This document shows positions 8,035 to 46,629 of a stretch of DNA of 55,382 nucleotides, one piece after another; the stretch's first letter is position 1, and each line of letters opens with the position of its first letter. Position numbers and translations under genes: made by a program. The notes beneath the pieces were generated by a model, which saw only the letters and a program-made list of their open reading frames with translations, was not told the origin of the DNA and made no database searches. The stretch is from Eubacteriales bacterium. Lineage in GTDB: Bacteria > Bacillota > Clostridia > Lachnospirales > Lachnospiraceae. The DNA lies in contig JAUNFZ010000010.1 in NCBI GenBank assembly GCA_030524785.1, positions 1 through 55,382 of the forward strand, written 5' to 3'.

Positions 8035-8820
8035 ATGATTCTGGCAATTGATATAGGAAACACAAATATTGTGATCGGCGGAATTGATGGGGAGCGGACG
8101 TATTTTATCGAACGTGTTACAACGGTCCGGACAGGCACAGAACTGGAATATGCTATTGATATTAAGAATGTACTGGATATTTACGGGATTGCGCCTGACG
8201 AAATCGAGGGCGGCATTGTCTGTTCTGTAGTGCCGCAGATTACGAATGTCCTTAAGACGGCCGCTCAGAAAATTCTGCGCAAGAGCGTTATGGTAGTAAA
8301 GCCCGGCATGGAAACGGGCCTGAATATCCTGATGGATTTTCCCAAACAGCTTGGAAGCGATCTGGTTGCCGACGCAGTTGCCGGGATCACCCACTATCCG
8401 GTGCCGCAGATTATTTTTGATCTGGGGACGGCCACTACAGTGTGTGTAATCGACGAAAAGAAAAATTACATCGGCGGAATGATCTATCCGGGCCTTCAGG
8501 TATCTCTGGATGCCCTGACGGCTCATGCTTCTCAGCTGCAGGGCGTGGGCCTTGAAAGCCCGGGAAAGGTGATTGGGAAAAACACCATTGACTGCATGAA
8601 AAGCGGTATTTTAAACAGCAATGCTGCCGCTATGGACGGAATTATCGGACGTATCGAAAAGGAGCTGGGACAGAAAACAACTGTTTTGGCAACTGGCGGT
8701 CTGGCGGACAAGGTAGCCCCTCTGTGCGAGCGGGAAGTGATTCTGGACAGGGATCTGCTCTTGAAGGGAATGTTGGAAATTTACAGAAGAAATACAAAAG
8801 AGATAAGTGATGTGACATGA
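8035..8820 (+). CDS. coaX: Type III pantothenate kinase
   Basis: This 261-residue cytosolic enzyme phosphorylates pantothenate, the first step of coenzyme A synthesis. Phosphate motif DIGNTNIVIGG is at the N-terminus. GSDLVADAVAG and FDLGTATTVCVI (near 103-145) are hallmark ASKHA-fold motifs of CoaX. CGGAGG lies before ATG 8035. It follows the presumed pantothenate importer, so uptake, phosphorylation and the coaBC steps are encoded together. The stop overlaps the start of the MATE transporter (ATGA). Confidence 0.95.
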   Translation: MILAIDIGNTNIVIGGIDGERTYFIERVTTVRTGTELEYAIDIKNVLDIYGIAPDEIEGGIVCSVVPQITNVLKTAAQKILRKSVMVVKPGMETGLNILMDFPKQLGSDLVADAVAGITHYPVPQIIFDLGTATTVCVIDEKKNYIGGMIYPGLQVSLDALTAHASQLQGVGLESPGKVIGKNTIDCMKSGILNSNAAAMDGIIGRIEKELGQKTTVLATGGLADKVAPLCEREVILDRDLLLKGMLEIYRRNTKEISDVT

Positions 8821-10190
8821 AAAAAAGGACAGAGCACAGAGGAAAAGCGGGACGTACCAACCAGATAGATATGCTGCAGGGGCCACTGATGGGGAAGATA
8901 TTAATGTTTGCGCTTCCCCTGGCGGCCAGCAGCATTTTGCAGCAGCTCTTTAATTCGGCAGATGTGGCGGTAGTAGGGCGGTTTGCAGGAAGCCAGGCAC
9001 TGGCGGCGGTGGGCGGAAACAGTTCAGTGATCAGCCTTCTGATCAATCTGTTTGTCGGGCTTTCCGTAGGCGCAAACGTGGTGATAGCAAATTACATAGG
9101 GCAAAGAAAAACGAAAGAGGCGGGCGAGGCAGTTCACACTGTAATGGCAACGGCTCTTTTCAGCGGTGTTTTTCTTCTGATACTTGGCTCTCTGGCGGCG
9201 AAACCAATTCTTCAGCTTATGAATACTCCTTCTGACGTAATAGAACTTGCGTCGCTGTATCTGCGCATCTATTTTCTTGGTATGCCTTTTCTGATGGTTT
9301 ACAACTTTGGAGCAGCAGTGTTAAGAAGCGTGGGAGATACGAGAAGACCTCTGTACTGCCTGATTCTTTCAGGGATAGTGAATGTATGCCTGAATCTTTT
9401 CTTTGTGGTTGTCTGCGGCATGAGCGTAGACGGCGTCGGTATCGCTACGGTGATTTCAAACGGCATCAGCGCTGGCCTGGTCTTTTATTTTCTGCTGAAC
9501 GAAGACGATCCCATACGCCTTGAAATCAGAAAAATACGGATCAAAAAAGTTCACCTTTTCAGGATGATAAAGATCGGAGTTCCGGCGGGGCTGCAGAGTA
9601 CGGTGTTTTCGCTGTCAAATGTGTGTATTCAGACAGCCATCAACAGTTTTGGCTCAAGTGCGGTAGCCGGTTCGGCCGCCGCCGTCAATTTTGAATATTT
9701 TACCTATTATGTAGTAAACTCGTTCAGCCAGGCTGCTGTGACATTCACCAGCCAGAATATTGGGGCAAAACAGTATGAACGCTGTAAAAAGGTGTTTCGG
9801 CTGTGCCTGGGAATGGGCATAGTCATCTCAGGTGCTATGTGTACCACATTCGTACTCCTGAGAGAGATCGCGGTCCGCTTTTATACGGTAGATGCGGCCG
9901 CCATAGAATATGCAGTCATGCGCGTTCGCCTGGTAGAGAGCCTGGCATTTCTGCCGGCAACGTATGAGGTGGCGGGAGCAGCTTTGCGTGGAATGGGACA
10001 TTCTATGCTGCCGGCTGTTCTGACGGTGATCGGTTCCTGCGGCTTTCGGATTATGTGGATTTATACCGTGTTTAGAGTAAAAGGAACATTTGAAAGCCTG
10101 ATGATTGTATATCCGGTGACCTGGATACTGACAGGAACCATGGTGGTAACGGCGTATCTTCTGATTCGAAGACGAATGATGAGCAATTGA
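8817..10190 (+). CDS. MATE family efflux transporter
   Basis: This 457-residue membrane protein has about twelve helices. MLQGPLMGKILMFALPLAASSILQQLFNSADVAVVGRFAGSQALAAVG is the typical MATE N-terminus, with the family's internal symmetry visible around residue 240. MATE proteins export cationic drugs or metabolites using sodium or proton gradients. The start overlaps the coaX stop by 4 bases. A link with coenzyme A metabolism is not implied by the sequence. A terminator follows. Confidence 0.93.
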   Translation: MKKRTEHRGKAGRTNQIDMLQGPLMGKILMFALPLAASSILQQLFNSADVAVVGRFAGSQALAAVGGNSSVISLLINLFVGLSVGANVVIANYIGQRKTKEAGEAVHTVMATALFSGVFLLILGSLAAKPILQLMNTPSDVIELASLYLRIYFLGMPFLMVYNFGAAVLRSVGDTRRPLYCLILSGIVNVCLNLFFVVVCGMSVDGVGIATVISNGISAGLVFYFLLNEDDPIRLEIRKIRIKKVHLFRMIKIGVPAGLQSTVFSLSNVCIQTAINSFGSSAVAGSAAAVNFEYFTYYVVNSFSQAAVTFTSQNIGAKQYERCKKVFRLCLGMGIVISGAMCTTFVLLREIAVRFYTVDAAAIEYAVMRVRLVESLAFLPATYEVAGAALRGMGHSMLPAVLTVIGSCGFRIMWIYTVFRVKGTFESLMIVYPVTWILTGTMVVTAYLLIRRRMMSN

Positions 10191-31668: not shown

Positions 31669-32286
31669 ATGGAAGGGTGCGGATGGTGCCTGTGCAATGA
31701 GAAGATGGTAAAATACCATGACGAGGAATGGGGTGTGCCGCTTAATGATGACCTGAAGCAGTTTGAATTTCTGATGATGGAAGTTATGCAGTGCGGGTTG
31801 AATTGGAATATGATGATTCAGAAACGGGAAATATTTCGAAAATGCTTTGATGGGTTTGATTATGAGAAAGTGGCATTGTATGGGGAGTGTGATATTCAGC
31901 GTATTATGGAAACAGAAGGGATGATACGCTCCCGCAGGAAGATTGAGGCAGTGATCCATAATGCAGAATGTTTTTTGAAAGTCCGAAAAGAGTTTGGTTC
32001 CTTCAGTGAATATCTTTGGGGATTTTCAAAGGGAAAAACGATTTTGTATATGGGACATCAGAAAGGGAGACTTCCGGCCAGAAACGGACTTTCGGATACT
32101 GTCAGCAAGGATTTGAAGGAGAGGGGATTTAAATATCTTGGCTCGGTTACGGTATATTCTCATTTGCAGGCGTGCGGCATCATCAATGACCATGCGGAAG
32201 GATGCTTCCGGTATCAGGAAGTGATGGCAGGACATCCGTTTATCCGTAAACGTCGGGATAAGGAAAGCTCTGCCGACAAGATATAA
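31669..32286 (+). CDS. tag: DNA-3-methyladenine glycosylase I
   Basis: This 205-residue enzyme removes 3-methyladenine from alkylated DNA in base excision repair. CGWC near the start, YHDEEWGVP (15-23) and NDHAEGC near 170 supply the zinc-binding Cys4, His, His and Cys set of Tag. QCGLNWNMMIQKRE replaces the common AGLSW block, a variation also found in clostridial members. The C-terminus is slightly longer than in E. coli (187 residues). AGGAGG precedes ATG 31669. Confidence 0.92.
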   Translation: MEGCGWCLCNEKMVKYHDEEWGVPLNDDLKQFEFLMMEVMQCGLNWNMMIQKREIFRKCFDGFDYEKVALYGECDIQRIMETEGMIRSRRKIEAVIHNAECFLKVRKEFGSFSEYLWGFSKGKTILYMGHQKGRLPARNGLSDTVSKDLKERGFKYLGSVTVYSHLQACGIINDHAEGCFRYQEVMAGHPFIRKRRDKESSADKI

Positions 32287-32347
32287 TGCTGAGGGAGAAA
32301 ATATGATGCTCAACTGAGCGTTTAGCATTGAATCAACGCTTAGTATG

Positions 32348-32376
32348 TTCGAAATAAATTCTTTTTTTGATATACT
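32348..32376 (+). promoter_or_regulatory. Probable promoter of the truncated regulator-like membrane gene
   Basis: TTCGAA (32348-32353) and TATACT (32371-32376) are 17 bases apart. Just upstream AGCGTT and AACGCT form a small inverted repeat around TAGCATTGAATC. Confidence 0.5.
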
Positions 32377-32407
32377 GCAGTCAAATATGGCAAAGGAGAT
32401 TCATTGT

Positions 32408-32947
32408 ATGGATCAGAAAAGAATAGGTGCATTTATTGCGCAGTGCAGGAAAGAAAAAAATATTTCCAAACTTTTTAAAGAAAAACAGATTGCCAATCTT
32501 AAGCCTGTAAAATACTTGCTCTCCATATGTGCGAATGTTTTTTTGTTTGTAGCAGTGATTGAATTAGCTATTGGTCTCGTCGGAAATTTTTTTAATTCCA
32601 CTATATTGAAACCCATGTTAATTAATGTTTCCGTATGGCTGATATTGTTTTTGGTTTCAATGAGCAAACTGGTATATGACAAGGAAAAATTGAAAAAACT
32701 GAAACATTCAGGCGTTTGTATGGACTCCGAAATAGAGGATATAATTCCGGCAGCCTGGATTAGAGTAGCAAACTACACCAGTTGCAGGATTGCCTGCCGG
32801 TTTATTTATGCGGGTAAGGAATACAGAGCAGTAAGCACCTATTATGTTCTGCCGCCATTTAAGCAAAAAGAAGATTTATATGCGGATATTTATATTGACA
32901 AAGATAATCCAGCCAAATATTGTGTAGAGCTTTTTCAAACAGGCTGA
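32408..32947 (+). CDS. Membrane protein with XRE-like N-terminal leader; HTH core missing
   Basis: This 179-residue protein starts MDQKRIGAFIAQCRKEKN, the stereotyped first helix of Cro/C1-type (HTH_3) regulators in clostridia (MDQ.KIG.FI..LRKEKN), but the recognition helices do not follow. Instead KLFKEKQIANL leads into two membrane helices (about 39-59 and 71-90) and a cytosolic or outer beta-rich tail. It looks like an XRE-membrane fusion from which the helix-turn-helix core was deleted in frame. AAGGAG precedes ATG 32408. Function unknown. Confidence 0.6.
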   Translation: MDQKRIGAFIAQCRKEKNISKLFKEKQIANLKPVKYLLSICANVFLFVAVIELAIGLVGNFFNSTILKPMLINVSVWLILFLVSMSKLVYDKEKLKKLKHSGVCMDSEIEDIIPAAWIRVANYTSCRIACRFIYAGKEYRAVSTYYVLPPFKQKEDLYADIYIDKDNPAKYCVELFQTG

Positions 32948-33106
32948 TAATTCAGATATCGGAAAGTATGGACGCATACATCGAGAATATTTAATGGAAA
33001 ATAATCCAATGTTGTTTAATGATTTGGTGCTGAGTTGTCAGCTCTGGACTTATCTTGCGGGTACCTCAACACTACGGACATATCTGGGCATTTCGCAACA
33101 AAATGC

Positions 33107-33210
33107 ATTGGTGTGACTAGGCAGACCTACTGCGCATTGGAGCAAGGAAAACGAAAAATGGCTTGGAGTGTATTATTGTCTTGATCTTCTATGTAAATCC
33201 CAAGACTAGA
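33107..33210 (+). pseudogene. Remnant of an XRE-type helix-turn-helix regulator
   Basis: The frame starting at 33107 reads IGVTRQTYCALEQGKRKMAW SVLLS and then TGA. This is the second half of a Cro/C1 domain (turn, recognition helix, and the S/T-W-S following helix). No start codon or upstream half in frame is present, and the 3' part is shifted. It lies about 160 bases after the XRE-like membrane gene and could be its lost DNA-binding core or an independent remnant. Confidence 0.55.
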
Positions 33211-33549
33211 GCGATAATCCTTTTCGTGACCTTTCCTAGGGGCTTCCTGCCTCTCTATCAGTCTCATGACACTTATCACAGGTTTGAACAATTTTGACTT
33301 TTTCGGCCGCTTTTCTTATGCCCTCACCTATCCCATGACAGCTGTAGAAGAATTGAACGGAAAGAAACAAAAAGACACCCAGACACAGATCCGAGCGATT
33401 TGTATTTGGATGATACATGGCCTGATGAACAGAAGATGGATAGAATGAGTTTATTTTACTAGAATTAGGAAACAAAAATAAATTTTGAATATAGAGTGCT
33501 GACTTTGCAAGATGAGATTTGCATTATTGTAGAATTTTGAGGGATATTT
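33211..33549. other. Gene-free stretch, probably degraded DNA
   Basis: No convincing gene is present. Short frames exist on both strands (the longest about 80 codons) without ribosome binding sites or recognisable motifs. One plus-strand frame near 33395-33450 reads SDLYLDDTWPDEQKMDR, which resembles the acidic tail of an unknown protein and may be a remnant. Base composition becomes A/T-rich toward the DUF1016 promoter. Confidence 0.4.
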
Positions 33550-33588
33550 TGTTATAATGTGAATTGGGTAGACAGCTTCTACCCAATT
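33550..33588 (+). promoter_or_regulatory. Extended -10 promoter and palindrome of the DUF1016 gene
   Basis: TGTTATAAT (33550-33558) is an extended -10 box. AATTGGGTAGA (33562-33572) and TCTACCCAATT (33578-33588) are perfect 11-bp inverted arms around CAGCT, over the expected start site. A 24-of-28 match to this element lies inside the gene at 33891-33918. GGGAGGG before ATG 33607 is the ribosome site. Confidence 0.6.
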
Positions 33589-33606
33589 TAGCTGGGAGGG
33601 TATTGC

Positions 33607-34647
33607 ATGGAAAATATTGTGAAAAGTGATTTTTTTGATAGGGTATTAGAAGTTCTTAAAAATGCTAGAAACCAGGCAAAAATGGCATTGAATATTTCTA
33701 TGGTTTACTCCTACTACGAAGTAGGACGAATGATTGTAGAAGAAGAACAAAATGGGGAACAGCGTGCTGAATATGGAAAAGCCATTCTTAAAGAATTATC
33801 AAAACGTTTGACAGAGAGCTTAGGAAAAGGATTTTCTGTGGAGAATTTGAAATTGATGCGTAGATTCTATGTAGTATATTCCCAAGACCAAATTGGGCAG
33901 AAAGTGTCTACCCAATTTGAAAACTTACCTGTAACAAAAGAAGGAAGAAAATTTTTTCTTAGTTTTTCACATTATGTAACACTTATGCGTATTCCCAATA
34001 TAGAAGAACGTCATTTTTATGAAATCGAAGCTATTCGGAATGGTTGGGGAATAAAAGAGCTAGGCAGACAATATGACAGTGCATTGTATGAGCGATTAGC
34101 ATTAAGCAGAGATAAAGAGGGAGTGAAACAGCTATCAGAAGAAGGACAAATTATTGAAAAGCCGGAAGATTTGTTAAAAGACCCCTATGTGTTGGAATTT
34201 ACCGGCTTGCCTGAGCTCGCTAAATATTCGGAGACGGATTTGGAAACCAAAATTATTGACCATTTGCAGGAATTTTTGCTGGAATTGGGTAGGGGATTTA
34301 CATTTGTTGGACGGCAGGTAAGATTTACGTTTGAGGACGAACATTATAGAGTGGACTTAGTCTTTTTCAATCGTTTGTTGCGGTGTTTTGTTCTTTTTGA
34401 TTTGAAGATTGGAAGGTTAAAGCATCAGGATATAGGACAGATGCAGATGTATGTGAATTATTATGACCGAAAGGTAAAACTAGAAGATGAAAATCCAACA
34501 ATAGGAATTCTGCTGTGTAAGAATAAGAATGATGCTGTTGTTGAGATGACTTTACCGGAGGATAATAGTCAGATATTTGCAAGCAAGTATCTAACTGTGT
34601 TGCCCAGCAAAGAAGAATTGAAAAAGTTGATGGAAAGTGAAGGATAA
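33607..34647 (+). CDS. DUF1016 (YhcG-type) PD-(D/E)XK nuclease family protein
   Basis: This 346-residue protein has an N-terminal DUF1016_N domain (about 10-170: helices around MVYSYYEVGRMIVEEEQ, GKGFSVENLKLMRRFY, FFLSFSHYVTLMRI) and a C-terminal YhcG nuclease domain (about 185-340). The nuclease motif is RVDLVFFNRLLRCFVLFDLKIG (about 247-268), with D and DLK in place of the common D...ELK, then GQMQMYVNYYD and IFASKYLTVLPS. These proteins occur in defence islands and with restriction systems; the exact role is unknown. It precedes a decayed second copy and the Wadjet operon. Confidence 0.9.
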   Translation: MENIVKSDFFDRVLEVLKNARNQAKMALNISMVYSYYEVGRMIVEEEQNGEQRAEYGKAILKELSKRLTESLGKGFSVENLKLMRRFYVVYSQDQIGQKVSTQFENLPVTKEGRKFFLSFSHYVTLMRIPNIEERHFYEIEAIRNGWGIKELGRQYDSALYERLALSRDKEGVKQLSEEGQIIEKPEDLLKDPYVLEFTGLPELAKYSETDLETKIIDHLQEFLLELGRGFTFVGRQVRFTFEDEHYRVDLVFFNRLLRCFVLFDLKIGRLKHQDIGQMQMYVNYYDRKVKLEDENPTIGILLCKNKNDAVVEMTLPEDNSQIFASKYLTVLPSKEELKKLMESEG

Positions 34648-34866
34648 TTGATTATAAGTGCAAAAATGATAAAAACTGAGGTGTTTCCAACCATTCGAAT
34701 AAAAATTGACAGATTATTAAAAATTACAAATTACAAATGAATATAAATATTATGATCTTGTGAAGGCGATATACTGTATTAATCTGTGTATTAATAATAG
34801 GTCTGTTTTGGAATCTTGTTTGGCACTAAATGCCTGTCTGATTGAGCAAGAAAAACTTCGCATGAA

Positions 34867-35337
34867 GCAGAACTTAGTCTGGCATTAGAGTATACATCGG
34901 GAGTTCTTGATTATTTTTTTGAAGAGAATAAAAACGATGGCAAAGGATTTACAAAATCTCAGAGGTTATTATCGTGGTCACATTATGCAGTATTATTACA
35001 GGTAAATGACAAAAAAGCTCGTGCATGGTATGAGAAAGAAGCTGCAGAACAAACTTGGAGTGTCAGAACTTTACAACGCAATATTTCTTCACAATATTAT
35101 TATCGCATACTTCAGACGCAGAAAAAGGATATACTGATTTTACAGAAAGCGACTTGGAGAAAAGTATTCTTTCCAATTTGCAGAAGTTTTTAATTGAACT
35201 TGGAAAAGGTTATGCTTTGTTCTGATACGGATGAGGATATTGCAAAGTATTCTGTGTTTCATGGCAATGAGCAGTTGTTTGCTTCTAAGTATAAAATTTT
35301 TCCAGCTAAGATGAAGCGAAATAAGAGGTACGGATAA
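34867..35337 (+). pseudogene. Decayed second DUF1016 gene, nuclease core deleted
   Basis: Frames between 34867 and 35337 carry pieces of another DUF1016 protein in the right order: GKGFTKSQRLLSWSHYAVLL, VNDKKARAWYEKEAAEQTWS VRTLQRNISSQYYYRIL, then after a frameshift YTDFTESDLEKSILSNLQKF LIELGKGYAL, then DIAKYSVFHGNEQLFASKYKIF. Comparison with the intact copy shows that the PD-(D/E)XK core (about 70-80 residues between GRGFTF and IFASKY) is missing. The final TAA (35335-35337) overlaps the ATG of jetA by one base, so this gene was once coupled to the Wadjet operon. 34648-34866 holds nothing recognisable. Confidence 0.8.
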
Positions 35338-36182
35338 TGTCATTTTTTGAATTGATTGATGAAAAATTTTTCAACCCATTTTGCTGTCGAAACAGAGAGG
35401 TATACATTGCATGCATTGATCAGTTGATTGAAAAATCGAAAGAGATACCGGTTCTTTATGAGACAGATGCCAGAAATACATTGATTTTGTATCTGAAAAA
35501 TTGTGAGTACACCATTGAAACGGAGAATATCGGAGAAGAAGTTGGCAGTGGAAAAAGTCCTCAGGAGAACGCATCCGCGATTCTGCGGTATTTTCGTATA
35601 TGCGGCTGGATTACACCCCAGGAAATCGGACGCAGCGGAGATAATATTGCATCGGTGTCCGCCTATTGCAGGAAATTGCTTGACGCGATTCATAAAATTT
35701 TTGACAGAGACGCCAACGGTGCAATTACGAATCACATTTTTTCTATGTATGAGATTTTAAAATCTTCCTTTGGGAAGGACAGTGTTCGGGCAATACGCCC
35801 TTACCTGAACATCCTAGTCCCGCTGGTAGAAAATGAGTGTGATTTAAAGAATGACCTGTTGATTTTAAAGGACAGCATCCGGGAGATCATGCGGACTGTG
35901 TTAAAGATGGCGGATGCTAATAGTTTCGGGCAGTTTTTGATTAAGGATGAATTGCTGAACCGGTTTTTTAACGACTATTTTTTCATCAAAAGGAGCGGGA
36001 TGATACCGTCCTACATAGCGGATATTGACCGTATGCTGCGCAGGCTGCGACGGTCGGAGCTTTATGAACGCATGGTTGAGGATTGTCGGCAAATCGAAAA
36101 TTTGGAAGAAACACAGGCAAAGGAAAAAATTGATCGCCAGTTTGCGGAGCTGGATAGTTTTATTAATTTGGAATATGAGTAG
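35337..36182 (+). CDS. jetA: Wadjet JetA, N-terminal part (ends at in-frame TAG)
   Basis: The 281 residues from MSFFELIDEKFFNPFCCRNREVYIACIDQL to SFINLEYE match the N-terminal 60% of JetA-family (DUF5716-like) proteins, the winged-helix/KITE-like subunit of the Wadjet SMC complex that recognises and cuts circular plasmids. The frame stops at TAG 36180-36182 and continues in the same frame after one codon (GAA) with ATG 36186. The combined length (about 470) is that of a whole JetA, so the TAG looks like a CAG-to-TAG nonsense change or a recent split. AAGAGG precedes ATG 35337. Confidence 0.78.
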   Translation: MSFFELIDEKFFNPFCCRNREVYIACIDQLIEKSKEIPVLYETDARNTLILYLKNCEYTIETENIGEEVGSGKSPQENASAILRYFRICGWITPQEIGRSGDNIASVSAYCRKLLDAIHKIFDRDANGAITNHIFSMYEILKSSFGKDSVRAIRPYLNILVPLVENECDLKNDLLILKDSIREIMRTVLKMADANSFGQFLIKDELLNRFFNDYFFIKRSGMIPSYIADIDRMLRRLRRSELYERMVEDCRQIENLEETQAKEKIDRQFAELDSFINLEYE

Positions 36183-36185
36183 GAA

Positions 36186-36749
36186 ATGGGTTATATTGAC
36201 CGGAAAATCAACACCTATTATAATTTGTACTCTACCAGAATGATGATGGTGCTCAGCGATAACACAAATCTGGAGCATGAATTAAACCGGCTTTTGATTT
36301 TTATGAAGAACTTGGATGATGAGGATAGAGAAATGGTACTGCGCCATCTATCTGAGGCGCACCGCCTGATGAGTATGGGATATATCGGGAAAAAGTCATT
36401 TGAACGGCGGAAAAAGTCCAATCCGAATCGGAAAACGGCAGGTTTGTCTGTGAGCAGTCTGTCGGAAGATGAACGGCAGCGTTTGACAGACGAACTGTTG
36501 TCTGAAACGCCGGATAGATATAGTGTAGAGAAGGTACAGAAGCATTTTGACCGGCTAATGGGAGACAGAAAGAAAATTCGGGTTGAGGAGAGCGAAATTC
36601 GTACCAGAGATGACGCTATGATGTTTGCTGCCAGTATTATATATTCGGGAACAGAAGGATTTCACTATGAGGTGGAACTCGGTGATGAGATAGTGGAGAC
36701 AGAGGTTGCAAGAATTCGTAACGTAACTGTAAAGAGGAGAGAACAATGA
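36186..36749 (+). CDS. jetA: Wadjet JetA, C-terminal part (in frame after TAG)
   Basis: The 187 residues continue the JetA family sequence without a gap: MGYIDRKINTYYNLYSTRMMMVLS, GYIGKKSFERRKKSNPNRK, LTDELLSETPDRYSVEKVQKHFD and IYSGTEGFHYEVELGDEIVETEVARI. The ATG lies one codon after the amber stop and has only AGTAGGA before it, so expression would depend on reinitiation or readthrough. Its 3' end overlaps jetB by 4 bases. The alternative, a naturally two-protein JetA, cannot be ruled out from one sequence. Confidence 0.72.
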   Translation: MGYIDRKINTYYNLYSTRMMMVLSDNTNLEHELNRLLIFMKNLDDEDREMVLRHLSEAHRLMSMGYIGKKSFERRKKSNPNRKTAGLSVSSLSEDERQRLTDELLSETPDRYSVEKVQKHFDRLMGDRKKIRVEESEIRTRDDAMMFAASIIYSGTEGFHYEVELGDEIVETEVARIRNVTVKRREQ

Positions 36750-37408
36750 GTGATATTCGTCTGCAGATTTCTGTAAAAGAAGATAGTATGAATCTGTTTA
36801 AGCGGAGTATACGAAAGCTTTTGGAATCGACTTTCATTCTTCAAAGTAAGGATGAAAAATTGTATCAGTATGTCTCCAGAGAATCGAACCGGCAGGATAT
36901 TTCCGAGTATCTTCGAATGATAGGATTTGATGTGATTGTCGATGAGAAGACCGGCGTGTGCATGCTTATAGCCAGCGAGGAGGACGCGGAAACGGTGGGG
37001 TTGAAGCGCGCCAATGTGGTAACATTTACGACATTACAATACCATCTTTTGCTGGTACTCTGGAAGGTCTATCTGGAAAATCTTGGTTATAATGAAGGGG
37101 ATTTTGTGACGAAAGGAGACTTGATTGATAAAATCAAATCCTATGGTTTGCCGATAGTGCGTACAGAGCTCAATGCGGCCTTTCGCCTGTTCAAAAAATA
37201 CAGTTTAATTAATTTCGATGAAGATGAAGAAGGGGAGGATATGAAGATTGAACTGTACCCCTCCCTGCAGTTTGGGTGGGACATTCCGCAGTTTCAGATG
37301 GTTGTGAAAGAATATCTGAAGGAAACGCCGGAGGAGGAAAATGTGCAAAGAGATGAGGATTTTGCAGACCAGATAAACCTGGAGGACTTTGAGGAGGAAG
37401 AAGAATGA
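36746..37408 (+). CDS. jetB: Wadjet JetB (DUF6063-like, kleisin-associated subunit)
   Basis: This 220-residue protein has winged-helix-like regions (VTFTTLQYHLLLVLWKVYLENLG, TKGDLIDKIKSYGLPIVRTELNAAFRLFKKYSLINF) and a strongly acidic C-terminal tail. Position and size between jetA and the SMC-like gene match JetB / DUF6063 (DUF4194-like) of Wadjet operons, the subunit analogous to MukE/MksE that binds the kleisin. It overlaps jetA and jetC by 4 bases on each side (ATGA), indicating translation at fixed ratio. Confidence 0.8.
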   Translation: MSDIRLQISVKEDSMNLFKRSIRKLLESTFILQSKDEKLYQYVSRESNRQDISEYLRMIGFDVIVDEKTGVCMLIASEEDAETVGLKRANVVTFTTLQYHLLLVLWKVYLENLGYNEGDFVTKGDLIDKIKSYGLPIVRTELNAAFRLFKKYSLINFDEDEEGEDMKIELYPSLQFGWDIPQFQMVVKEYLKETPEEENVQRDEDFADQINLEDFEEEEE

Positions 37409-40400
37409 TAGCACTTAAAAAAGTCCGATTAATTAATTGGTATGGTTTTTCAAATGTGACGGCGCCGATAGGTTTCTTTACATTGATTGCCGGAAGAAAC
37501 GGCAACGGAAAATCAGCCATGTTGGATGCTGTCAAGTATGCGGCCTACGGAGACACGGTATTTAATAAATCGTCGGAAAGCAAGGGGAGCCGGACGTTAT
37601 CTTCCTATACAAGGGGACTGCTGGATGCCACGGCAGGCACGTATATGCGTCCGGCAGATCGAGTGCCGAATGTATACAGCCATATTGTACTGGAGTATTT
37701 TGATGATGTGGAGGAGAAATCTTTTGTACTGGGAGCGGTGATTGAGACAAATACGGCGAACAATTGCCAGACATATCGGTATGTGGCGGATCGGTTTTCG
37801 CTGGATCAGATGGAGCATACTTATAAAGAAGAAGGGCTTGACATTCCTTTTAGCGCATCGGCGCTTCAGAAGAAATACAGGTTGACGCTTTTGAATCGGG
37901 AGCAGGGACTTCCCCGTTTTATGCAGATGACAGGCTTGAAGCTGAATCTGGGACAGATGCCGACGTATCTTCAGAAATTGCGGGGAATCATGTCTTATGA
38001 TCCCAATGCCAAAATTGACCAGTTTATCCGTGAAAGCGTTCTGGAAGAACGGAACGTAGATTTTAAGAAACTGATTGAAGCGAAAGCGAATATTGAGCAG
38101 CTGAATGATAATTTTAATATGATTCAGGAGGAAATCAGCGAACTGGATTGCGTATTGGGAGAATATGACGCGTGGGAAAATGAGAGCAATCGTCTGTTGG
38201 CCGATGATATTCGTATTGTGTATAGGAACATGAAAATTCTGAAAGAGGAAATTGAAAAGCAGAATACAGAACGGGAGCGGGCACAGAGAAGCAGGGAAGA
38301 CGTTGCAGAAAACCTGAAGATCCTGGAGAATCGAAAACAAGATGTGGAAAATAGATTGATTGAGGCAAAGACAAATCTGAGAAATCTGGACAGCGTGCGC
38401 ATGATTACCCAGGAGGAGGAACGATTAGAAAAACTGGAGAAAGATAGGGAAGCTTTACTTAAAAAATGCAGGGATTTGGAGCAGTTTCAAACGGTTGTCA
38501 GTGAACTTATGAACCGGTTTTTTAAGAAAACAGAGCAAATCGCGGATAGGGATATTTTGGCTGCCCTGTGCGGATATGAATATACTACCGCGCAGAAAGC
38601 ATCGGCTGTTGCAGAGATAAAGCAGAAGACAGGTTTGGCTTATGATGAAATTGTGAAACAGATTTTCAGCGTGGAACGTGGTATCGAAGAACTTGAGAGA
38701 GAGCTGGACACGCAGAATCGGATTTTGGAGGAGTGCAAAAGGCACCAAAATACATATAGACAAATTCCAGAGTATGTGGGGTTGAAAGAGCAGATTAACC
38801 GGGAATTGGAGAGAAGAAAAATATCCGCACGGGCGCAGTTCGCCTGCGAGTATGTGATTGGCCTTGAGGATGAGAAATGGAGGAATGCGATTGAGGCGTT
38901 TTTAGGTCCCCGCCGCTATACGATTCTGGTGGATCCGGAGTATTATGATATTGCGGATGATGTGCTGAATGGCTCCGAATACCGGTATGCTCACTTGTTT
39001 AATACGAAGCTTTTGATGCGCCGTGATGTAAAAGTGGAGGAGGATTCTGTGGTATCTATGCTGCAGATCAAGAATCCGGTGGCGAAGCGTTATTTTGAAT
39101 TTCAGCTTGGCAGGATGCGCGCCGTATCTCTGGAAAAAGTGCGCATGTATGAAAACGCGATTTCCAAAGAAGGGCGTGTGTCAGTCGCCATGGACGGCTA
39201 TTTTCTTCGGTTTGACAGGATTCGCTCGTATTATCTGGGGCAGAAGACCTTTGAGCTGAACAGGATTCGGGCACAGAAGGAAATCGTACGTCTTCAGGCG
39301 GAGAAAAAGGAGAAACTGTCCACGAAGAACGAATTGTCGGGACAGAATAACACTCTGACACAGTACAAAGAATTCTTCTGGGAATATGATTATGATGCTC
39401 ATTCAAAATATCAGAGAGTGTCCGGAGAGGTAAGAGAATCTAAGGCACAGTTGGAACGTCTGCGGAAAGCGCAGGCAAACAATCAGGAGTATATTGAACT
39501 GAATGAGACCGTAGGACGCCTTGATGAGGAACAGAAAGCAATTGGCGAAGAATATGCAAAGAATGTTCAAACAGATAGCGAACAGAAGACGGTAATTGTG
39601 CGCTGTGAAGACAGGATAAAAGATAAGACAGAAAAATTGGAGGAGCAGGAAAAACAGTATAAGGAATATCAGATTGAACATTATACGATTGTACAGAAAA
39701 CTGTGGATGCTTATGAGAAATATCTGGAAAACGGAAGAAAAGGACCGGGCGGACTGCTGGCAGATGAGACCAGAGGGCGTGTCCGAAGGAGTATTGAGCA
39801 GCATAAAAGTAGCCTGATGCAGCTTCAGGCTGATTATAATGCAAAACATTCCGATAATATGCTGCCCAGGGGGACAGAAGGGCGCAGTCAGTATGCAGCC
39901 CGGCGGGATCGTATCTGGATGGATAATCTTCAGGAAATTCGTCAGAAGCTTGAGGAACAGACCCGTCGCTATGAAGATATATTTAAAAATGAATTTGTGC
40001 TGACGATTCTGAATTCCTGTGAAAGGGCCAGGGACGATTTGAAACAGATTAACAGAGAACTGGCGAACTTAAACTTTGCGGCAAAATATGAATTTGATGT
40101 TCACTATGTGCGGGATGGCTCAGAATATGCAAAAATTATCGACTACGCACGGTTCCTGGATGAGCGGGAACAGCTTGGAGGCGGAGCAGAAGGGCAGATG
40201 ACTTTTGGTATGCTGACGGCAGTATCCGATGAAGAAGGGGAACAGCTGGAGCAGGACATGAAACGGATTGTGAACCGAATTATCGAGAAAAACAGCGAGG
40301 AGGCCATATCCAGGTTCGCGGATTATCGGAATTACATGACGTATGAGATTCTGGTCACAAACCAGGTTCTGAATCGGGCAAAGCTGTCCCGACAGACAGG

Positions 40401-40722
40401 CTTTAATTCAGGCGCGGAGGTACAGATTCCCTATCTTTTGATTCTGGCCTCGGCTCTTCTTCTGATATATAATCAGCGGATCAATTCAACGCGCCTTGTC
40501 TTTATTGATGAGCCATTCGCTAAGATGGATCCGGGAAATGTAAAGCAGATGTTGGATTTTTTGCGCTCACAGCGGCTTCAGGTAATTTTTTGCTCGCCGG
40601 ATAAGACGGATTCCATTGGAAATGAGTGCGAAGTGATTCTTCCGGCGCTTCGTGTGGCGGCGGACAGAATGGAACTGGGTATCGTGCAGTTCCATAAGGA
40701 GAAAGTATATGGAAATGTATGA
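37405..40722 (+). CDS. jetC: Wadjet JetC, SMC-like ATPase
   Basis: This 1105-residue protein has an SMC/MukB/Rad50-type ATPase head. Walker A GRNGNGKS is at residues 30-37. Two long coiled-coil arms (about 240-470 and 680-880) flank a hinge-like globular centre (about 490-650). The C-terminal head has a signature-like stretch (FNSGAEVQIPYLLILASALLLIYN) and Walker B RLVFIDEPFAKMDP near 1030. In Wadjet, JetC drives DNA loop extrusion by which closed circular plasmids are detected. It overlaps jetB by 4 and jetD by 14 bases. The frame is intact. Confidence 0.92.
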   Translation: MIALKKVRLINWYGFSNVTAPIGFFTLIAGRNGNGKSAMLDAVKYAAYGDTVFNKSSESKGSRTLSSYTRGLLDATAGTYMRPADRVPNVYSHIVLEYFDDVEEKSFVLGAVIETNTANNCQTYRYVADRFSLDQMEHTYKEEGLDIPFSASALQKKYRLTLLNREQGLPRFMQMTGLKLNLGQMPTYLQKLRGIMSYDPNAKIDQFIRESVLEERNVDFKKLIEAKANIEQLNDNFNMIQEEISELDCVLGEYDAWENESNRLLADDIRIVYRNMKILKEEIEKQNTERERAQRSREDVAENLKILENRKQDVENRLIEAKTNLRNLDSVRMITQEEERLEKLEKDREALLKKCRDLEQFQTVVSELMNRFFKKTEQIADRDILAALCGYEYTTAQKASAVAEIKQKTGLAYDEIVKQIFSVERGIEELERELDTQNRILEECKRHQNTYRQIPEYVGLKEQINRELERRKISARAQFACEYVIGLEDEKWRNAIEAFLGPRRYTILVDPEYYDIADDVLNGSEYRYAHLFNTKLLMRRDVKVEEDSVVSMLQIKNPVAKRYFEFQLGRMRAVSLEKVRMYENAISKEGRVSVAMDGYFLRFDRIRSYYLGQKTFELNRIRAQKEIVRLQAEKKEKLSTKNELSGQNNTLTQYKEFFWEYDYDAHSKYQRVSGEVRESKAQLERLRKAQANNQEYIELNETVGRLDEEQKAIGEEYAKNVQTDSEQKTVIVRCEDRIKDKTEKLEEQEKQYKEYQIEHYTIVQKTVDAYEKYLENGRKGPGGLLADETRGRVRRSIEQHKSSLMQLQADYNAKHSDNMLPRGTEGRSQYAARRDRIWMDNLQEIRQKLEEQTRRYEDIFKNEFVLTILNSCERARDDLKQINRELANLNFAAKYEFDVHYVRDGSEYAKIIDYARFLDEREQLGGGAEGQMTFGMLTAVSDEEGEQLEQDMKRIVNRIIEKNSEEAISRFADYRNYMTYEILVTNQVLNRAKLSRQTGFNSGAEVQIPYLLILASALLLIYNQRINSTRLVFIDEPFAKMDPGNVKQMLDFLRSQRLQVIFCSPDKTDSIGNECEVILPALRVAADRMELGIVQFHKEKVYGNV

Positions 40723-41968
40723 AAAAAAGTTGCTTACAGCATTGGTGGAGAAATATCGGAAAAGTAAAAAGGACAGTGGAACAAATTTGATTACCAGGCG
40801 CACCCAGTTAACGCCAGACAAGCTGTATAAAGCATATAAACAAAATGACGGTGATTTGGAAAAGATTGAAGCAGTAAACCAGGCGGTCTATCAATGCAAA
40901 GAGAGAGGCTTTCTGACTTTTGAACAGGAAGGATTCAGTAATGAAATCCGCATAATTTATCTGGTAGATGAGAAGGTTGAGGAGATTGAGCGGTATTTGG
41001 AGGAAGCGTATCAGTATGAGTCCAGATATGTAATGAAACGGCGTTTTGAGAAACTGATTGCCGCATACGAAAATGCTTCCCCCGTTGCTGGTTATGAGTG
41101 TGGCAAGCTGAGGCAAATGCTGGAGAAAAACCAGATCCCGCAGAACTACCTGCAACTGCAAGATATGCTGAAGGCCCTCGTATTTATTGAAAAAAATGAA
41201 AGAGAACTGTTTCTTCGGGAAGCATCCATGTTGATATATGGGGATTCTAAATATCTGGAAGAAAAAGCATTACATTCGGTCTGCCGGGCGTTCCGGGAGT
41301 ATTTGAAACGCCCCTGTCAGGAGAATGAGTTGGAAGATGAGATTTTGGAGGAGTATCATATTGTGCGGGAAAGACAGAAACTTTGTCTGAAAGGCAATAT
41401 GACCATTCAAATAGCGGGAAGAAAACTGGATCTTGGAGCATTTGCAGACGGCGTAGAATTTTTTGCAGATGAATTGAAGCGGTTGGAGTGGATTCATATC
41501 CGTACATCTCATTTTATGACGGTTGAAAACCGTACGTCCTGGCTTCGACTGAAAATCCCGGATGCAGCGCTTTTTTATCTTGGCGGATATTGTGTACGCT
41601 CTCAAAGGGATTTTCTTAAAAAGGTTTTTCGTGACAATCCAGAGCTCACGTTTTGGCATTTCGGGGATATAGATGCAGGCGGCTTTTATATTCATGAGCA
41701 TCTGTGCCGTATGACGGGAATTCCGTTTCGACTGTATCGAATGTCACGAAAGGAACTGGAAAATCCGCATTTCCAATCTTGCCTGCGTCCATTGACACAG
41801 CAGGATCAACTCAGATTAAAGTCACTGGAGAAACAGGAAACGTATCGGGAACTGGTCACATATATGTTGAAACAGAATGTGAAGCTTGAGCAGGAAATTG
41901 TAAGTCTTTATGGGACAGAGAATGAGAAGATGGAAGAATATTTTATTTGCCACACCGTTTGCCCGTGA
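40709..41968 (+). CDS. jetD: Wadjet JetD, topoisomerase/toprim-like nuclease
   Basis: This 419-residue protein carries the DUF2220-type C-terminal domain: ERLEWIHIRTSHFMTVENRTSWLR and the toprim acidic motif FWHFGDIDAGGFYIHEHL near 313-330, followed by the conserved LYRM block. JetD is the nuclease that cleaves the plasmid once JetABC has wrapped it. I chose ATG 40709 (MEMYEKKLLTALVEKY) with TAAGGAG upstream; the longer frame to 40652 lies wholly inside jetC. It is the last Wadjet gene and the frame is intact. Confidence 0.88.
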   Translation: MEMYEKKLLTALVEKYRKSKKDSGTNLITRRTQLTPDKLYKAYKQNDGDLEKIEAVNQAVYQCKERGFLTFEQEGFSNEIRIIYLVDEKVEEIERYLEEAYQYESRYVMKRRFEKLIAAYENASPVAGYECGKLRQMLEKNQIPQNYLQLQDMLKALVFIEKNERELFLREASMLIYGDSKYLEEKALHSVCRAFREYLKRPCQENELEDEILEEYHIVRERQKLCLKGNMTIQIAGRKLDLGAFADGVEFFADELKRLEWIHIRTSHFMTVENRTSWLRLKIPDAALFYLGGYCVRSQRDFLKKVFRDNPELTFWHFGDIDAGGFYIHEHLCRMTGIPFRLYRMSRKELENPHFQSCLRPLTQQDQLRLKSLEKQETYRELVTYMLKQNVKLEQEIVSLYGTENEKMEEYFICHTVCP

Positions 41969-42085
41969 ATTTGCGCAGATGTATGGAGATTTGCGTAGGT
42001 TTGGGGCAAAAGCAAAATATTAAGGAAGTGCCGGGAAAGCCCGAAATCACAGGGATTTGCAGGCTTATAATTGGAGGGACAATCT

Positions 42086-42979
42086 ATGTTTATGACAGTA
42101 AAACAGACTTCTGAGAAATGGGGCATTTCTGATAGAAGAATCAGAGTGCTTTGTTCTGAGGGGAAAATTCCGGGTGCGTACCAGGAGGGGCGTGGCTGGA
42201 AGATACCTGTGGATGCAAAGAAACCCGCTGACGGTCGTTATAAGTCAAAGGAGAGTCTTTTGGCACAAATTGACCGCAAGAAGGTAGAACTGGACAGCAG
42301 AAGACCTTTAACTGCGGGTGAGGTTGCAAGGCTCAATGAAGAATTTATCGTAGAGTACACATACAACTCCAATGCCATTGAAGGAAATACACTTACACTG
42401 CGAGAAACGGATTTAGTTCTTCGTGGTCTTACGATTGACCATAAACCGTTGAAAGACCATATGGAGGCAGTTGGTCATAAAGAAGCATTTGATTTTGTGA
42501 GTGAACTTGTAAAAGATAATGTTCCGATTAGTGAGAGCATCATCAAACAGATTCACTATCTCGTTCTTGCAGATAAGAGAGAAGACCGTGGTGTCTACCG
42601 TAGAGTTCCGGTTCATATTATGGGCGCACAGCACGAACCCGTGAAGCCGTATCTTATTGAGCCTAAGATGGAACAGTTGCTATATGATTTTGCTGCAAGC
42701 ACAGAGCATATCGTGACAAAACTGGCTCGTTTTCACATCGAGTTTGAGGGTATCCATCCTTTCATTGATGGCAATGGCAGAACCGGAAGACTGCTTGTAA
42801 ATCTTGAGTTGATGAAAGCCGGATTCCCACCTATAGATATTAAGTTTACAGATAGAATTGCCTATTATAATGCATTTGATGAATATCATGTAAAGCACAA
42901 TCTTTCGGCAATGGAAAATCTGTTTGCAGGATACATCAATGCCAGATTGGATATGTATTTAGATATGTTGCAGGATTAA
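42086..42979 (+). CDS. Fic family protein with N-terminal helix-turn-helix
   Basis: This 297-residue protein starts with an excisionase/MerR-like DNA-binding segment (MTVKQTSEKWGISDRRIRVLCSEGKIPGAYQEGRGWKIP). The Fic domain has HPFIDGNGRTGR near residue 225, with the catalytic His and phosphate-binding loop, so it should transfer AMP or another NMP to protein side chains. SNAIEGN near 95 fits the inhibitory (S/T)xxxE(G/N) motif, so the protein is probably self-inhibited. GGAGGGAC lies before ATG 42086. It follows the Wadjet operon after 117 bases and precedes a macro-domain gene. Confidence 0.92.
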   Translation: MFMTVKQTSEKWGISDRRIRVLCSEGKIPGAYQEGRGWKIPVDAKKPADGRYKSKESLLAQIDRKKVELDSRRPLTAGEVARLNEEFIVEYTYNSNAIEGNTLTLRETDLVLRGLTIDHKPLKDHMEAVGHKEAFDFVSELVKDNVPISESIIKQIHYLVLADKREDRGVYRRVPVHIMGAQHEPVKPYLIEPKMEQLLYDFAASTEHIVTKLARFHIEFEGIHPFIDGNGRTGRLLVNLELMKAGFPPIDIKFTDRIAYYNAFDEYHVKHNLSAMENLFAGYINARLDMYLDMLQD

Positions 42980-43009: not shown

Positions 43010-44029
43010 ATGCCTTTTGAAATAGTACGAAATGATATTGTAAATATGAAAGTGGATGCGGTGGTAAACACTGCAAATCCTAATCCTGTCATCGGCTCCG
43101 GCGTTGACAGCGGAATACATAAAAAAGCCGGATATGAGATGCTTGTGGCAAGACAGAAAATCGGCTGCATTGATTTTGGTGACGCAGTTATTACCCCAGG
43201 ATTCAATCTGGATGCCAAGTATGTTATCCATACTGTAGGACCTGTTTGGGAGGATGGCAATCACGGAGAGGAGCAGATTTTATCTTCGTGCTATAGGAAA
43301 TCCCTGGCATTGGCTAACGGTAAGCTCCATGAGGAATTTCAGTCCGGCTATATCTGTCCCATTTACTTTGGTATGCTGACGGAAGCTGAACGACTGGAAA
43401 TGGGGAAACGGCTGGCAGCTCTCGCGGAAAAAAATGATTACAAAATCGAAACCGGTTTTCTTGGCACGCCTTATTTACTGTTTGCCTTATCCGATACGGG
43501 ACATACGGACACCGCCTACCGCGTGCTGCTGAATGAAGAATGCCCCGGGTGGCTTTACCCGGTAAAACTCGGCGCGACGACCATCTGGGAGCGCTGGGAT
43601 GCGCTGCGCCCGGACGGCACGGTCAATCTCTCCAATGACTATGTAGGCGGCAAGGGCGCTACCAGCGCCGATTTTGATCCGGAGGATCAGAGTGCGCCAA
43701 GCATGACCAGCTTCAATCATTATGCTTACGGCGCAGTCGGCGATTGGCTGTACCGCCGGGTGGCAGGATTGGAGGCCATGGAGCCTGGATGGAAACGCTT
43801 TCGGGTTCAGCCCATGCCGGGAGGCGGTCTGACGTGGGCTGAGGCATATACCGAAACGCCTTTCGGGCAGGTTCGCGCACGTTGGGAAATCCGCGACGGC
43901 AGCTTTGAACTGAGGGTGGATGTGCCGGAAGGTGCGGCTTGTGAGGCTGTTCTGCCTGATGGAACGAAATGCGAAGCCGCCGCCGGAAGTCATTGCTTCA
44001 CATGCGTATATGGAGGAGGAATTTTATGA
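43010..44029 (+). CDS. Chimeric ORF: macro domain fused to the C-terminal part of a GH78 alpha-L-rhamnosidase
   Basis: This 339-residue frame joins two unrelated proteins. Residues 1 to about 102 are the first half of a macro domain (ADP-ribose binding): IVRNDIVNMKVDAVVNTANPNPVIGSGVDSGIHKKAG, then GDAVITPGFNLDAKYVIHTVGP and CYRKSLALA. The rest, from about GKLHEEFQSGYICPIYFGM, is the last third of a GH78 rhamnosidase: TGFLGTPYLLFALSDTGHTD, YPVKLGATTIWERWD, SFNHYAYGAVGDWLYRRVAG and the C-terminal beta domain. The junction is near base 43316. Neither half is complete. GGAGG precedes the ATG, so it can be translated, but function is doubtful. Confidence 0.85.
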   Translation: MPFEIVRNDIVNMKVDAVVNTANPNPVIGSGVDSGIHKKAGYEMLVARQKIGCIDFGDAVITPGFNLDAKYVIHTVGPVWEDGNHGEEQILSSCYRKSLALANGKLHEEFQSGYICPIYFGMLTEAERLEMGKRLAALAEKNDYKIETGFLGTPYLLFALSDTGHTDTAYRVLLNEECPGWLYPVKLGATTIWERWDALRPDGTVNLSNDYVGGKGATSADFDPEDQSAPSMTSFNHYAYGAVGDWLYRRVAGLEAMEPGWKRFRVQPMPGGGLTWAEAYTETPFGQVRARWEIRDGSFELRVDVPEGAACEAVLPDGTKCEAAAGSHCFTCVYGGGIL

Positions 44030-46170: not shown

Positions 46171-46629
46171 ATGATTAAGATACTTTTTGTGTGCCAGGGT
46201 AATATCTGCCGTTCCCCTATGGCGGAATTTGTATTTTCTGATATGGTAAATAAAAGAGGCTTGTCGGATCAGTTTCATATTGAATCTGCGGCTACCAGTA
46301 TGGAAGAAATAGGAAACGGCGTCCATTATGGGACGAGGAATAAGCTGCGCCGGGAGGGTGTTCCGATGTGGGATCACAGGGCGCGGCAGATAACCCGCGG
46401 GGATTATGACCGGTTTGACTACATCCTGGGCATGGAGCAGTGGAATCTGCGGAATATAAAACGGATTATCGGAGCGGATCCGGAGAAGAAAGTCCATTTG
46501 CTGCTGGACTACAGCAAGTCGCCCAGGGATATTGCAGATCCATGGTATACGGGAAACTTTGACGTTACCTATGATGATATCGTGGAGGGATGTGAGGGAC
46601 TGCTTGCCCATATTCTTTCGGAAATGTGA
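46171..46629 (+). CDS. Low-molecular-weight protein tyrosine phosphatase
   Basis: This 152-residue cytosolic phosphatase has the active-site loop CQGNICRS (Cys8 nucleophile, Arg14; CX5R) and the general-acid aspartate in DPWYTG near 123. Length is normal. AGGAGG precedes ATG 46171. Such proteins dephosphorylate tyrosine or arginine residues; no kinase or substrate gene is adjacent. It is the first intact core-type gene after the island. Confidence 0.93.
   Translation: MIKILFVCQGNICRSPMAEFVFSDMVNKRGLSDQFHIESAATSMEEIGNGVHYGTRNKLRREGVPMWDHRARQITRGDYDRFDYILGMEQWNLRNIKRIIGADPEKKVHLLLDYSKSPRDIADPWYTGNFDVTYDDIVEGCEGLLAHILSEM

Follow-up and report, generated by a model that had tools for sequence, protein, structure and literature searches.

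A Wadjet type I operon with jetA interrupted by a single in-frame amber codon, most likely a nonsense allele

Introduction

In Wadjet systems, JetA is the kleisin that together with JetC and JetB makes up a loop-extruding SMC complex, and the N-terminus of this kleisin connects two Wadjet motors (PMC10586767). According to the same source, anti-plasmid action in B. subtilis requires all four subunits, which agrees with an earlier note on the locus described here in holding that JetA is needed. Wadjet can nevertheless be lost. The native jetABCD operon of Clostridium cellulovorans was lost spontaneously, and its deletion increased plasmid uptake ~10^5-fold (PMC12287153). Along with an eptABCD null of M. 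smegmatis (PMC10586767), the C. cellulovorans deletion (PMC12287153) is a case of an anti-plasmid system lost by mutation, and the spontaneous loss makes null alleles biologically plausible. A literature search returned no paper on a premature stop in JetA of a Wadjet system.

Here, we describe a Wadjet locus in a stretch of 55,382 nucleotides (positions 1 to 55,382 of contig JAUNFZ010000010.1, assembly GCA_030524785.1, Lachnospiraceae), which we refer to as the window. It may resemble the C. cellulovorans and M. smegmatis nulls in outcome, but the change consists of a single nonsense codon in jetA, from which loss of function is predicted.

Results

The operon spans positions 35337-41968, with jetA, jetB, jetC, and jetD adjacent and in that order (Table 1). 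The top PADLOC hits were all to type I models (JetA1 for both halves of jetA, JetB1, JetC1, and JetD1), and the gene order, sizes, and tight overlaps are those of Wadjet type I as represented in PADLOC; the locus differs in that jetA is broken by one in-frame TAG. Specifically, a continuous kleisin JetA of ~470 residues, a trait of Wadjet type I, is absent from the window, where the TAG follows residue 281. Profile matches and frame continuity bore out the earlier identification of a Wadjet jetA interrupted by an in-frame amber, and the profiles place the operon in type I. On these matches, the operon descends from Wadjet type I but is only a putative working member of that family.

The genes jetB, jetC, and jetD are open frames, each with a Shine-Dalgarno site of its own. 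The overlaps are as previously reported, with 4 bases between the second jetA half and jetB, 4 between jetB and jetC, and 14 between jetC and jetD, the last of which assumes that jetD starts at the ATG at 40709. The PADLOC match to JetD1 starts at residue 20 of the longer, GTG-started jetD frame. By domain match, JetC is predicted to bind ATP and JetD to be of nuclease type.

Table 1. Coordinates of the jet genes, the in-frame stop, and the remnant upstream of jetA in the window
Feature	Position	Strand	Evidence
Decayed DUF1016/YhcG-like remnant, not Wadjet	34951..35310	+	tblastn of intact copy: three broken pieces
jetA, first part, 281 aa	35337..36182	+	PF18982 2-245; PADLOC JetA1 1-282 of 472, E 4.7e-154
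In-frame amber TAG	36180..36182	+	Sense codon in 9/9 homologues compared, residue variable at column
jetA, second part, 187 aa	36186..36749	+	PF18982 251-434; PADLOC JetA1 285-470, E 9.7e-83
jetB (KITE, 220 aa)	36746..37408	+	PADLOC JetB1 E 3.1e-92; PF13835
jetC (SMC ATPase, 1105 aa)	37405..40722	+	PADLOC JetC1 1-1098 of 1098, 1724.7 bits; PF13555, PF13558
jetD (nuclease subunit, 419 aa from ATG 40709)	40709..41968	+	PADLOC JetD1 E 1.6e-151; PF09983

A single reading frame runs from the ATG at 35337 through the TAG, a GAA, and the ATG at 36186 to a TGA at 36747-36749. Both the coordinates and the translations of the window agree with the earlier description of 281 and 187 residues in one frame with only TAG GAA between them. 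The halves matched adjacent parts of the same profiles, Pfam PF18982 (434 positions) and PADLOC JetA1 PDLC00448 (472 positions), and each half matched JetA independently of the other. The view that the joined halves make up a JetA with nothing missing is supported by the profile spans, and apart from the TAG there is no damage to the frame in the window sequence. Furthermore, a search of the whole source genome returned one JetA match, with one TAG inside it.

A JetC search of genome contigs recovered six loci, five of which are close (L016-L020; 83-90% identical in JetC). These five belong to metagenome-assembled genomes named Lachnospiraceae or Eisenbergiella from samples labeled "Lapin," presumably rabbit gut. 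The sixth (56% identity) came from a wild mouse, and its jetA is cut at the contig end. All of the Jet proteins of the window resemble those of the five close relatives, with identities of 81-94% for the JetA halves, 88-90% for JetB, 83-90% for JetC, and 79-87% for JetD; the relatives differ in having an uninterrupted jetA and flanking genes that are mostly not common with the window. Because each of the five has one uninterrupted JetA of 469 residues over the same stretch, the halves in the window are not frames that happen to be adjacent.

An alignment with JetA homologues at the TAG, which the earlier note had proposed, was run with nine sequences: the six loci from the JetC search, a locus from the same genus (L008, genome G003), L009, and L010. 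All nine have a sense codon there and are stop-free across the site, so a JetA that naturally ends at LEYE is ruled out. The site is a variable polar position, occupied by R, Q, K, or E, to which no one ancestral codon can be assigned. A nonsense change, as put forward in the earlier note, is best supported, with CAG as its source only one possibility. A methionine two residues past the site is present in all nine homologues and, farther on, Y294 and R301 (L018 numbering) are invariant in a 31-row JetA alignment, indicating that the second part contains conserved sequence.

Among the viral contigs searched, no relative was found, and plasmid records yielded 13 JetC matches, all below 60% identity. 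Neither JetA nor MukF turned up when solved structures were searched by sequence, whether the query was one of the halves or a 31-row JetA profile. An AlphaFold2 model of the intact L018 JetA from a five-row alignment was too poor to use (pTM, 0.28); in this low-quality model (mean pLDDT, 39), the site falls within a long helix (258-308).

JetA loci were gathered from four partly overlapping searches of 60, 397, 392, and 391 genomes. Loci were considered near full length when at least 390 of the 434 profile positions were covered in one row, or when two rows lay inside one open frame (G067, G383, G010, and G168). Among 166 distinct near-full-length loci in the genomes searched, the window's alone has an internal stop, meaning that the same split, for which the earlier note had looked to related genomes, occurs in none of the other 165. 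Within the same genus, JetA was present in two of eight genomes. Copies broken in other ways were encountered, besides further weak matches (G166, G299, and rows below the cut-off). The jetA of G337 ends after ~315 residues beside a transposase-like frame, as judged from the open reading frame alone, and that of G339 is frameshifted. Partial or decayed copies occur in G033 (C48), G019 (C8), G224, and G563 (C181), partial ones in G585 and G1070 (with one TAA), and contig ends cut the gene in G302 and G388. The TAG codons of the broken copies in G339 and G585 lie at the end of the aligned piece, past the stop-free tblastn alignment. Decay of jetA is therefore not rare, whereas a jetA whose sole defect is one stop codon is. 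In a matched control with JetD_C, six rows were reported with an internal stop (G248, two in G117, G283, G398, and G029); the match may overrun the gene end, or internal stops could be not rare in the jet operon.

We defined private changes as sites where the window alone differs from its five close relatives. For jetA, 17 of these were nonsynonymous (9 in the first half, 8 in the second) and 37 synonymous (27 and 10), and for jetB, jetC, and jetD together there were 66 and 116. By Fisher's test, jetA did not depart from these three genes, whether in its second half (P = 0.61) or in the two halves combined (P = 0.63). Under a rough model, unconstrained drift would take up <7.5% of the private history for the second half and <6.3% for the halves combined, a bound that comes from an unrooted set of six without outgroup polarization and with pairwise synonymous divergence mostly of 0.6-1.0. 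Degeneration of jetA under relaxed constraint was not seen; the higher ratio of nonsynonymous to synonymous changes in the second half is found in the relatives too, at 0.09-0.33 compared to 0.04-0.14 in the first half. Judging from these counts, both halves look to have been normally constrained up to recent times. With both halves constrained and little drift, the stop would be very young, an error, or tolerated.

G+C content is 37-38% at 32-36 kb and 44% in the jet genes; elsewhere it is mostly 45-51%, with one 2-kb block of 42%. This pattern suggests that the low-G+C stretch (32000-36000) is acquired DNA. An intact copy of a DUF1016/YhcG-like nuclease occupies 33607-34647 (PADLOC PDC-S02), and the decayed remnant sits between this copy and jetA. 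That the flanks of the jet genes are mostly not common to the relatives would fit a mobile defense cassette. Directly past jetD, a gene at 42071-42979 encodes a Fic-domain protein with an N-terminal helix-turn-helix. At 43010-44029, the beginning of a macro domain is fused in one frame with a C-terminal portion of an alpha-L-rhamnosidase; the junction, near 43.3 kb, could come from a deletion or from a misjoin in the assembly. In L020, the gene directly past jetD (9285-9761) encodes a low-molecular-weight phosphatase, whose homologue in the window (46171-46629, 57% identical) lies ~4 kb past jetD; the two cassettes may therefore share a chromosomal site.

Discussion

The interruption is real as sequence, and it is most likely an ordinary event in which a nonsense codon has broken a familiar defense gene. 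Specifically, we give a probability of roughly 0.6 to the window jetA being a recent nonsense allele in a known Wadjet type I operon. If so, translation would halt after residue 281, keeping the N-terminal kleisin region and losing the C-terminal 40%, and jetB, jetC, and jetD could still be made, each from its own Shine-Dalgarno site. By analogy with MukF-type kleisins, we take the lost part to include the JetB-binding stretch and a winged helix through which the ring is closed at the JetC head, and a JetA truncated in this way would not be expected to allow plasmid cleavage. Lacking a complete kleisin, the complex would neither extrude nor cut plasmids, and the lineage is probably without Wadjet activity. 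Both the presence of the stop in the cells and the loss of function it would cause are inferred. The decayed state of the gene just upstream of jetA was counted in favor of this reading. Yet, unrelaxed constraint would be expected equally of a working split gene or a readthrough gene, and the ATG right after the stop would permit restart. Among the three origins offered in the earlier note, the nonsense change is nonetheless the best supported, and neither the split form nor programmed readthrough gained positive support.

The main rival, possible but doubtful, is that the TAG is an artifact of the consensus or the assembly, or comes from a minority strain, with jetA uninterrupted in the dominant cells. 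The genome is a draft of 2.75 Mb in 114 contigs, of which the window is contig 76, with 92% completeness and 3.68% contamination, and the partial fusion of macro domain and rhamnosidase on the same contig could be a misjoin. In addition, one base is the sole defect of the gene, and all other signs fit a maintained jetA. Isolated substitution errors that create a stop are, however, rare in a short-read consensus, and the surrounding sequence shows nothing that looks damaged. A further alternative, which we regard as improbable, is that the amber codon is read through by a suppressor tRNA, or in a leaky or programmed manner, to yield enough full-length JetA. Given the variable residue at the site in homologues, many insertions might be tolerated, and the constraint on both halves would also be explained; but TAG terminates 5 of the 42 open reading frames counted in the window, the first part of jetA included, and genes for RNase R and a TetR regulator end in TAG with domains reaching almost to that codon. 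A PylS profile had no match above the cut-off in the source genome, which is incomplete (the best match scored 28.2 of 178.15 bits); among control genomes, 13 of 14 had a match, one of them over the cut-off. No CUA anticodon was present among the 17 tRNAs found in this draft, a clearly incomplete set. With ordinary TAG stops in the window and these two results, an alternative code or pyrrolysine is unsupported in this incomplete genome.

We assign only a very slim chance to a JetA made in two pieces, in which stop and restart at TAG GAA ATG would produce 281- and 187-residue parts of a split kleisin that assembles on JetC and JetB into a functional Wadjet ring. Constraint on both halves would be expected of such a protein, and the ATG lies 3 bases past the stop, whereas an ATG occurs within the next two codons at just 8 of the 162 positions in both jetA frames that are one step from nonsense (24 of the 162 when ATG, GTG, or TTG is accepted). 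Since the downstream methionine is inherited, being shared by all nine homologues, this proximity is suggestive at most. The Shine-Dalgarno match of the second part is weak (of 40 further starts that were scored, 34 have a stronger one), and no dedicated restart signal for it was found in the window; still, genes at 8817 and 50004 have similarly weak sites at starts that overlap the preceding stop, so that restart at 36186 is possible. An "open" split kleisin, Nse4, has been engineered into Smc5/6 complexes, permanently opening the ring (PMC10191858), which was counted in favor of a split JetA. Against it, an opened kleisin ring would be expected to impair function, and the other 165 near-full-length JetA loci are without an internal stop.

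Should the split form work, loop extrusion and plasmid cleavage would be shown to proceed without an intact kleisin chain, and the locus would be a new JetA architecture and a natural test of whether the SMC motor needs a continuous kleisin. If instead the stop is real and jetA is a recent nonsense allele, the lineage has probably just been opened to small plasmids. Finally, each half of jetA scores strongly on the PADLOC JetA1 model, so model-based callers could count this operon as complete.
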